From: Bacillota bacterium
GTDB taxonomy: Bacteria > Bacillota > Clostridia > Oscillospirales > Oscillospiraceae
Reading direction: 5' to 3'
Assembly: GCA_021770445.1 (NCBI GenBank)
Contig: JAETQY010000002.1
Location: forward strand, 62,001-126,000
DNA length: 64,000 nt
Below are positions 28,984 to 51,988 of this stretch, piece by piece; position 1 is the first letter of the stretch, and each line of letters begins with the position of its first letter. The position numbers and the translations under genes were made by a program. The notes under the pieces were generated by a model. It saw only the letters and a list, made by a program, of their open reading frames with translations, was not told the DNA's origin and made no database searches.

Positions 28984-29175
28984 CCTTTCCAAATATAATC
29001 CACGGGTCGGGCTGCTACTCCATCACTATAGCGCCCGGCACCAAACAAAAAGGAGGAAAAACCCGCTGCGGCTTGCGGTACGGCAGTGTGGAGACCTGTC
29101 GTAAAGCCCCTGGGGACTACGCTGCTCCAGGGCGAGGTGGAATGGCGGAGGCCGTTTCATCAAAGCCGAACGCAA
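28984..29175 (+). promoter_or_regulatory. Long structured leader before the sugar ABC ATPase
   Basis: A TATAAT lies at 28993-28998, followed by about 170 nt with several dyads: CCGC-UGC/GCA-GUGG near 29058-29090, and a GCCCCUGG/CCAGGGC stem near 29107-29133. The ATG at 29176 has no Shine-Dalgarno site at normal spacing; GGAGG ends 24 nt upstream, and an unused AAGGAGG lies at 29050. The stretch ACTATAGCGCCCGG recalls the cleavage site of glmS ribozymes, but the rest of that core is missing. The class of leader is unassigned. Confidence 0.45.
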
Positions 29176-30366
<1,191 letters not shown>

Positions 30367-40565: not shown

Positions 40566-40787
40566 TCAGGCCATTTTGGCGACCAGACGGTCCAGGGAGC
40601 GGGGCGGGACATCGTCCTCCACCACCACACGGGCCCTTTGGCCCACCAGGGCGAACAGGCCTAGCAGAGACCGGGCGTCCAGCATCATGTTGTCGGTGAA
40701 AAGCCAGACCTCATAGGGAGCGTCACAGGCCAGACGGTTGATTTTTTCCACCTGGGCCTCGCTCTTGATATCAATTTCTCTTGTCAT
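40566..40787 (-). CDS. HPr-like protein lacking the active-site histidine
   Basis: This 73-residue protein matches the HPr fold from about residue 18 onward. The segment MMLDARSLLGLFAL aligns with the NLKSIMGVMSL helix of HPr, including the regulatory serine. The N-terminal IHARPA loop with the phosphorylated His15 is absent (replaced by DIKSEAQVEKIN), so it cannot act as a normal PTS phosphocarrier. Whether it is a Crh-like regulator or a divergent paralogue cannot be settled from sequence. The ribosome-binding site AAGGAGGT is ideal and it has its own promoter 75 bp upstream. Confidence 0.75.
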   Translation of the reverse strand: MTREIDIKSEAQVEKINRLACDAPYEVWLFTDNMMLDARSLLGLFALVGQRARVVVEDDVPPRSLDRLVAKMA

Positions 40788-40896: not shown

Positions 40897-41098
40897 GGAA
40901 TGAATTGTGGATTTGGAACAAAAATCGGAAAATGAATTTGTGCAATAAGTGCAGAAACAAGCTGGAGCAAAGAAGGCAAGAAAGACATATGACCGCGTGC
41001 AACGGACGGACACGGCACATCCTGCGGGATATATTTGGGAAAACCTACATAGGAGGGGTCAAATTGAAGGGGAAATTTTAGAAAATTGCAAAATCCAC
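40897..41098. other. Gene-poor AT-richer stretch
   Basis: This lies between the HPr promoter and the small transcription unit at 41.1 kb. I see no ORF with a convincing start; a 30-codon frame beginning at the ATG at 40989 lacks a ribosome-binding site. An AGGAGGGG at 41051-41058 precedes only a five-codon frame. It may be the degraded remains of a gene or an untranslated region. Confidence 0.35.
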
Positions 41099-41127
41099 TT
41101 GACAAATGCCTGCTGCCGGTTTACAAT
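41099..41127 (+). promoter_or_regulatory. Strong promoter of the small transcription unit
   Basis: TTGACA and TACAAT are separated by 17 bp. The unit runs to the terminator at 41549. Confidence 0.75.
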
Positions 41128-41201
41128 AACAGAAACCGAAACGGAGGTGGCGTTTAGCTTCTCCGGTCGGCAGAGATTTTTCAGGAAAGAGGTGGGTAAA
41201 G

Positions 41202-41267
41202 ATGCAACAGCGTTATGTTACCCAGGGGGGACTCTTTGCCTGCAAGCGACTGGAGCATATTGTGTGA
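41202..41267 (+). CDS. Very small ORF, 21 residues, possible leader peptide
   Basis: MQQRYVTQGGLFACKRLEHIV begins at an ATG 6-8 nt after AAAGAGGTG and is the first ORF of the transcript that starts near 41134. It is too short to judge by sequence alone. Position suggests either a small protein or a leader for the 42-aa ORF 110 bp downstream. Confidence 0.35.
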   Translation: MQQRYVTQGGLFACKRLEHIV

Positions 41268-41377
41268 GGCTGTTCAAATTGACAGGCCGGGTCACGGATT
41301 TTTCTCCATCGTTTGCGGCGCAGACGGTGGTATTTTTATACCCATTTTTCAGCGACTACAGAAAGGAGATGGCAGCG

Positions 41378-41506
41378 ATGACGATGCCGAAACGGGAAGT
41401 GAACAGTATCTGGTCCAAGGTCCGGGAGGACCGGGACATTGATGATCTGATCTTCAATTACGACGCCTGTCACACCAGTGAGGACGACGCAGACAGCGAC
41501 CGGTGA
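41378..41506 (+). CDS. Small acidic protein, 42 residues, unknown
   Basis: MTMPKREVNSIWSKVREDRD leads into an acidic tail (DIDDLIFNYDACHTSEDDADSDR). The ATG at 41378 is 8 nt after AAAGGAG; the in-frame ATG at 41369 is too close to that site. The track ORF extending to 40949 crosses the promoter and is not credible. The protein has a single Cys and no membrane segment. It is transcribed alone and closed by a strong terminator. I recognise no family. Confidence 0.55.
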   Translation: MTMPKREVNSIWSKVREDRDIDDLIFNYDACHTSEDDADSDR

Positions 41507-41548
41507 AGGCCGTCTGTGACCGGCGGAAGGCCGGTAAAAGAGAATGAG

Positions 41549-41580
41549 ACGCCGCGGCTTTGTGCCGCGGTGTTTTTTTT
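41549..41580 (+). terminator. Terminator of the small transcription unit
   Basis: ACGCCGCGGC and GCCGCGGTGT form a stem around TTTGT, followed by a run of T residues. Confidence 0.85.
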
Positions 41581-41652
41581 GAAAGCCTATTCTATTTTGC
41601 CCAAAAGTTTGCTATAATCAGATGATAAAGACTTCACCGCTTTGGAGGGCCT

Positions 41653-51734: not shown

Positions 51735-51847
51735 AAAAAACACTCCTTTTTTGAATTTGACCGCTGAAAGACCATGTCTTCCAGGTGTCAAAACAAACAA
51801 GGAGGTGCGCCCTAAGCGCGCCGAAACGGCGCGTGTTGTTTTACACA

Positions 51848-51968
51848 CATCTTCTTCCATCCGGACTGTAACCGTTGGTCCCGGAGTTTCACCGGGTCAG
51901 CGGACGCTTGCGCGCCCGGTCGCGGACTTTACCGCCAGTGGGGAATTTCACCCCGCCCTGAAGACATC
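51848..51968 (-). ncRNA. FMN riboswitch (RFN element) upstream of ribU
   Basis: On the minus strand all RFN landmarks are present in order: TCTTCAGGGCGGGGTGAAAT, CCCCACTGGCGGTAAAG, CCGCGA, CCCGGTGAAACTCCGGGACC and AGTCCGGATGGAAGAAGA. Between it and ribU the leader holds a CGCGCCG/CGGCGCG hairpin (51817-51833) and a GCACCTCCTTG segment that could pair with the ribU ribosome-binding site AAAAGGAGTG, suggesting translational control. No T-run follows the hairpin, so a terminator platform is less likely. Confidence 0.95.
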
Positions 51969-51988
51969 GTATCCAGTTGTCTGGAAGC

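Follow-up and report, generated by a model that had tools for sequence, protein, structure and literature searches.

A micro-protein gene of a widespread Oscillospiraceae family under a probable translation-sensing transcription attenuator

We describe a compact 450-base unit within the window (the whole stretch of DNA analysed, 64 kb, from a gut bacterium) which is, in our judgement, likely to be a single-gene transcription unit that produces a 42-aa regulatory micro-protein under the control of a translation-sensing transcription attenuator. Sequence and comparison with relatives define its anatomy, comprising a promoter, a conserved upstream ORF (uORF), a terminator, an antiterminator, the gene for the 42-aa protein and that gene's own terminator; the direction of control and its signal are what we infer from this anatomy. 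The RNA switch probably turns the 42-aa gene on when ribosomes slow on the uORF. By its sequence, the product belongs to a widespread family of stand-alone tiny proteins that appears to be undescribed in the resources searched.

Results

Layout of the unit

All features of the unit lie on the forward strand. A promoter scan placed a sigma-A-type promoter, TTGACA-17-TACAAT, at 41099-41127, with the -35 box TTGACA at 41099-41104, the -10 box TACAAT at 41122-41127 and a spacer of 17 nt. This site, already named in the initial annotation, matches the consensus at 11 of 12 positions, and 3-kb shuffles yielded 0.5 promoter-like sites of whatever quality. An alignment of the relatives' upstream regions gives TTGACAaa...GGTTTACAATAA. 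The 21-codon and 42-codon ORFs, each described from the outset as having a Shine-Dalgarno sequence, were found at 41202-41267 and 41378-41506. The first encodes MQQRYVTQGGLFACKRLEHIV and follows the Shine-Dalgarno region AGAGGTGGG (41188-41201), and the second follows GAAAGGAG (41361-41368). The strong terminator expected at the end of the unit lies at 41549-41580 and folds at -20.3 kcal/mol (z -5.5 against shuffles).

A second intrinsic terminator, which had been missed, was found between the two ORFs by scan and by folding. It spans 41306-41336, consists of an 11-bp stem followed by TATTTTT, and folds at -15.6 kcal/mol (z -4.5, with no shuffle equally good). A small hairpin is possible over its T-run in the near-invariant GGTATTTTTATACC (41329-41342), which is present in 24/28 leaders. 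Given the two terminators and a transcription start placed near 41134 from the -10 box, RNAs of ~200 nt and ~445 nt are predicted. The single transcript of ~440 nt originally proposed is thus retained as the predicted read-through form, and the shorter RNA has to be added to it.

The unit holds small ORFs only, as first stated: a longer, GTG-initiated frame of 185 aa (40949-41506) is open mechanically, and relatives do not keep its length. In the window the gene that follows is murB, with a -10 box (TATAAT, 41609-41619) of its own, while a homolog of pyruvate carboxylase subunit B is the next gene at 28/40 relatives' loci. We therefore rejected an operon with murB and regard the 42-aa gene as a single-gene unit.

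A 73-aa ORF at 40566-40787 (-) is divergent from the unit and has a promoter, TTGACG-17-TACAAT, at 40896-40868. Its product, which we take to be HPr-like, found no match in Pfam or NCBIfam. Elsewhere in the window are a malK-I RNA motif (Rfam RF03069, E 6.7e-25; 28999-29181, +) and an FMN riboswitch (Rfam RF00050, E 1.1e-25; 51845-51969, -).

Conservation of the 42-aa protein

The 42-aa product is MTMPKREVNSIWSKVREDRDIDDLIFNYDACHTSEDDADSDR, and the first description of it as acidic with one cysteine is accurate (12 D/E, 6 K/R, one Cys). Absence from sister species, which the initial annotation had named as grounds for abandoning its reading, was looked for and did not occur. The protein is present in 51/64 genus genomes, the named members of the group being Flintibacter muris, Lawsonibacter MAGs, Pseudoflavonifractor isolates, Flavonifractor sp. 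An100 and Colidextribacter sp. OB.20, and relatives conserve the promoter, the leader ORF, the internal terminator and the Shine-Dalgarno sequence upstream of the 42-aa gene. A comparison of substitutions in relatives, one of the checks suggested earlier, indicates that the gene is under purifying selection: pooled differences gave pS 0.62 and pN 0.21 (pN 0.15 if only codons 1-26 are counted), values that are descriptive as species pairs are not independent. The single cysteine is not fixed, and where relatives have one it is mostly near the C-terminus. AlphaFold2 modelled one helix, at residues 21-31, with low confidence (pLDDT 61). A type I toxin was rejected for this acidic sequence, which is without a hydrophobic stretch, and so was DUF1127 membership, as no Pfam family matched at E up to 1.

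The leader ORF

The leader peptide has the consensus M-x-x-R-Y-V-T-Q-G-[GA]-x4-C-K-R-x-E-[HQ]-[TS]-V. Its ATG is invariant in 30/30 aligned leaders, its Shine-Dalgarno sequence is kept too, and length differences between the ATG and TQG come in threes. The best conserved part is R-Y-V-T-Q-G, and the RYVTQGG stretch shows a purifying pattern (pN 0.19 vs pS 0.49, pN/pS ~0.4). Amino-acid conservation over the uORF is moderate and is explained in part by RNA pairing, the second half being pairing-constrained. An early start codon with a ribosome-binding site and in-frame length changes are what would be expected of the short ORF in a uORF attenuator. Exceptions occur: a TAG after RYVT ends the uORF of L049 ahead of the antiterminator arm described below, and the uORF of L036 is frameshifted. 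In 19/28 leaders, though not in the window copy, GCACAG immediately 5' of the uORF is able to form pairs with CTGTGC close to the uORF end.

Mutually exclusive hairpins

Codons 14-18 of the uORF contain a sequence of the form GCAAGCGA-x-TGGAG, present in the window as GCAAGCGA-C-TGGAG at 41242-41255, which is complementary to CTCCATCGTTTGC at 41304-41316 (13 pairs). The latter strand serves as the 3' arm of the antiterminator and, from 41306, as the internal terminator's 5' arm. Since both hairpins need this strand, they are mutually exclusive. The sequence therefore holds an intrinsic terminator before the presumed controlled gene and an antiterminator that shares its strand and overlaps the uORF, as expected of an attenuator. 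In the window, folding of the antiterminator region (41239-41318) gave -33.4 kcal/mol, compared with the value of -15.6 kcal/mol for the terminator alone. The median energy of the antiterminator duplex was -16.9 kcal/mol, and 19/36 leaders were at <=1 in 200 shuffles.

A covariance check of the leader RNA, also suggested in the initial annotation, showed that both pairings are kept with compensatory changes. Across 30 leaders (species), 91.5% of the antiterminator cells were standard pairs, and 4 pairs (7 cells) had changed on both sides. When the partner was slid by 1-3 columns as a control, pairing fell to 36-57%. In the internal terminator 99.4% of cells were paired, with changes on both sides in 3 pairs. 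The antiterminator covariation score for the 30 leaders exceeded that of all 500 shuffles, though related sequences may beat shuffles without any structure; single cases, however, are telling. Such cases were seen in the divergent leaders L051, L052 and L058, which retain the antiterminator with altered sequence. The arm of L052 reads GCGGACGGATGGAG against CTCCATCGTCCGT with every pair retained, and L051 and L058, whose uORFs are otherwise different, yet have the arm CAGACGAATGGA in a comparable position.

A covariance model of the leader matched strongly only before the small-protein gene, about once per genome, and the secondary matches were weak and mostly terminator-like fragments. A recognisable leader was absent from 8/48 genus homologs. 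These data bear on the possibility that the first ~200 nt form an independent small RNA that ends at its own terminator, with no more than leaky read-through into the 42-aa gene. A full promoter-to-terminator unit of ~200 nt does exist, and it includes invariant parts (TATTTTTATACCC), but we consider this account improbable. Both the conserved complement of the terminator 5' arm, which is situated in an ORF, and the conserved gene that follows immediately with its Shine-Dalgarno sequence fit an attenuator. In addition, the strong matches are confined to leaders of the 42-aa gene, and Rfam offers no match. An identity with 6S RNA was ruled out, since 6S RNA is located elsewhere in the genome. 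The suggestion that the untranslated remainder could act as an RNA is borne out insofar as RNA outside the 42-aa ORF has a role, which is best read together with the 21-codon ORF as one attenuator and not as an independent RNA.

We also considered whether the leader RNA structure senses a specific ligand or charged tRNA, as a riboswitch or T-box would, with the uORF incidental. The strongly conserved leader nucleotides and the alternative hairpins would suit such a sensor. However, no riboswitch, T-box or other RNA of Rfam matched at the unit at either curated or permissive thresholds, RNAalifold gave no conserved aptamer-like fold, and the start codon, Shine-Dalgarno sequence and frame of the uORF are all kept, which makes this the least probable of the readings that we weighed.

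The proposed switch

Attenuation through the uORF, which we favour, raises the question of what keeps the antiterminator arm unpaired. No conserved upstream pairing with the arm was detected that could form an anti-antiterminator (median shuffle fraction 0.64, with 1/28 leaders <=0.05). A good match in the window copy, TCTCCGGTCGGCAG, was the sole one among 28 leaders and was rejected as such an element. The ribosome is therefore the likeliest agent. According to the model, ribosomes on uORF codons ~10-21, moving in step with RNA polymerase, would cover the antiterminator arm, the internal terminator would form and the ~200-nt RNA would be released. Ribosomes that are late, absent or stalled within the first ~10 codons would allow the antiterminator to form, resulting in read-through and in the ~445-nt mRNA that carries the 42-aa gene. 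A point against the model is that in most relatives the uORF stop lies past the arm, so that a ribosome resting at the stop would leave the arm uncovered and only moving or coupled ribosomes would cover it.

The signal may be narrower than a general slowing of translation, if RYVTQGG in the uORF product is a conditional arrest peptide that responds to one specific drug or metabolite. The best conserved residues precede the antiterminator arm, and stalling there would free it; such a peptide would also be compatible with our main model. On the other hand, no known arrest motif was recognised, and the peptide is altered in L027 and L052 as well as being cut before TQG in L049. We therefore regard a dedicated arrest peptide as a genuine possibility, albeit the weaker one.

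A family of micro-proteins with a DxDDLIF core

The earlier statement that no family is recognised holds for described families. Searches of Pfam, NCBIfam, PHROGs and PDB sequences gave nothing convincing, the PDB match being a plant WRKY protein at E 0.03; phages gave no family match; and a family with the DxDDLIF motif was not found described in open-access full text or indexed papers. The protein is, however, no orphan, as our profiles place it in a large order-wide family. Its members, 17-52 aa long, carry the core D-[IVL]-D-[DE]-[LM]-I-[FY], which a variable linker separates from the C-terminus S-x-[RK]. The window protein has the core D-I-D-D-L-I-F (41435-41455), the S-x-[RK] end and an ORF of corresponding length. 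Among 90 distinct members, S is third-last in 89 and the final residue is R/K in 87, counts that are partly circular because the collecting pattern required S-x-[RKN]; the same end is seen in the first members, which were found by a profile without that requirement.

With the widened profile (E <= 0.01), matches were obtained in 226/371 Oscillospiraceae genomes and 74/106 genera. An earlier version of the profile (E <= 0.05) had matched 64/394 genomes across the order, many of them from a second family, whose gene content points to Ruminococcaceae. A class-wide sample of 391 genomes gave 10 matches only, of which 4 belong to the order and 6 to one other family, and this near-absence argues that the Oscillospiraceae matches are not due to chance. 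In other genera the matches proved to be genuine tiny ORFs, and almost every one has a Shine-Dalgarno sequence. We rejected a fusion to a larger protein, as the long frames seen at some of the matches are open upstream frames only and the start with a Shine-Dalgarno sequence is near the motif.

Genomes often have two paralogs, including the source genome, in which the codon pattern of the core occurs exactly twice, both times in tiny ORFs (the 42-aa gene and G000:C66:348-368). The second paralog of the genus (L181 / G000:C66:1-400; L184-L187, L222, L230), for example MNSSKAVPLGPPDLPVPGGPDLDDLIFQDESWLASDR, is mostly preceded by a promoter of the GCATATACTG type, and we saw no attenuator with it. 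A second paralog group in Oscillospiraceae, which often combines this neighbourhood with sigma-E-like GCATAnnnTG promoters, adjoins prfB on the same strand at 9 loci; prfB is downstream of the second paralog in L184 and L185, from the same genus as the window, and in L187, from another genus. The sequence GCATAnnnTG was found upstream of 26/90 members, against 0.34 expected from shuffles, and several have CATATT ~14 nt before it. The combination resembles the B. subtilis sigma-E consensus. A sigma-E homolog is encoded in 10/10 genomes tested (8 above the curated cut-off), and the motif does not occur within the 64-kb window. In L127, L129, L228, L234 and L241, GCATAnnnTG often forms an inverted repeat with the bases that follow, such as GCATATACTGGTCTATATGC, which is possibly an operator over the -10 box.

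Copies of the second, Ruminococcaceae-like family are found near infC at 10 loci. Second-family members such as MRHLRIPQQPDRPDIDDLIFGDEHETHSDK (L162-L180, L197) lie ~1 kb from an infC gene of opposite orientation. At several of these loci a small protein, presumably DUF1292-like and without an NCBIfam match, is encoded between the tiny ORF and infC.

The positions of many tiny ORFs just upstream of a terminator, and of one group upstream of prfB, could suggest that they are leader peptides of the next gene and not proteins in their own right. This is doubtful on several counts. The neighbouring genes change from lineage to lineage and often have the opposite orientation; a terminator-like hairpin is present <=90 nt past the stop in 57/90 members; and those downstream genes that were examined by eye (murB, the pycB-like gene and prfB in L126) bear promoter-like boxes of their own. 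Moreover, conservation is seen in a motif at the protein level, with the C-terminus fixed and the N-terminus variable. We hold such a leader function to be about as improbable as an independent small RNA.

Discussion

The RNA part of the unit provides a new example of a mechanism that is already known. The closest published case is the vmlR leader of Bacillus subtilis, ~200 nt in length, in which a uORF is combined with a mutually exclusive antiterminator and intrinsic terminator, and stalling on the uORF allows transcription to continue (PMC9226507). The window leader has the same kind of logic. It differs in that the vmlR leader has an anti-antiterminator hairpin around the uORF, for which no conserved equivalent is found here, and in that the gene controlled there is an ABC-F resistance factor (PMC9226507), whereas here it would be that of a 42-aa protein. 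A functional parallel, in that a small-protein gene is under uORF control, is provided by duf1127-1 of Sinorhizobium meliloti, where a translated 29-aa uORF keeps the gene off and tetracycline or chloramphenicol induces it within minutes (PMC12218461). Unlike the present unit, that system lacks an intrinsic terminator and probably relies on Rho (PMC12218461); in addition, DUF1127 is arginine-rich whereas the window protein is acidic, and the phyla are unrelated. The presumed target of the attenuator described here is a micro-protein of a widespread family, and not an enzyme or resistance gene.

As our best guess, the 42-aa protein acts as a short linear motif, made up of an amphipathic DxDDLIF helix and the fixed S-x-[RK] tail, through which it would bind some partner in the cell. 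A more speculative extension, which we consider rather unlikely to hold as a whole, is that the DxDDLIF micro-proteins are order-wide peptide regulators. The copy with the attenuator would be released on impaired translation and the second, often by prfB, would be under a sporulation sigma-E-type promoter. Each would use the shared helical motif to dock on a single conserved target, which might belong to the machinery of translation or transcription.

Microbiome small-protein catalogues, such as GMSC (PMC11364881) and sORFdb (PMC11796252), may list members of the family without a name. Most Oscillospiraceae, which are a dominant lineage of the gut, have the family, and the main family libraries hold no name for it. 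Its sharp signature, the presence of mostly one or two copies per genome, the contrasting promoters of the paralogs and the recurring neighbours prfB and infC make its function directly approachable, and for the window copy the leader supplies a ready hypothesis for when the protein is produced.
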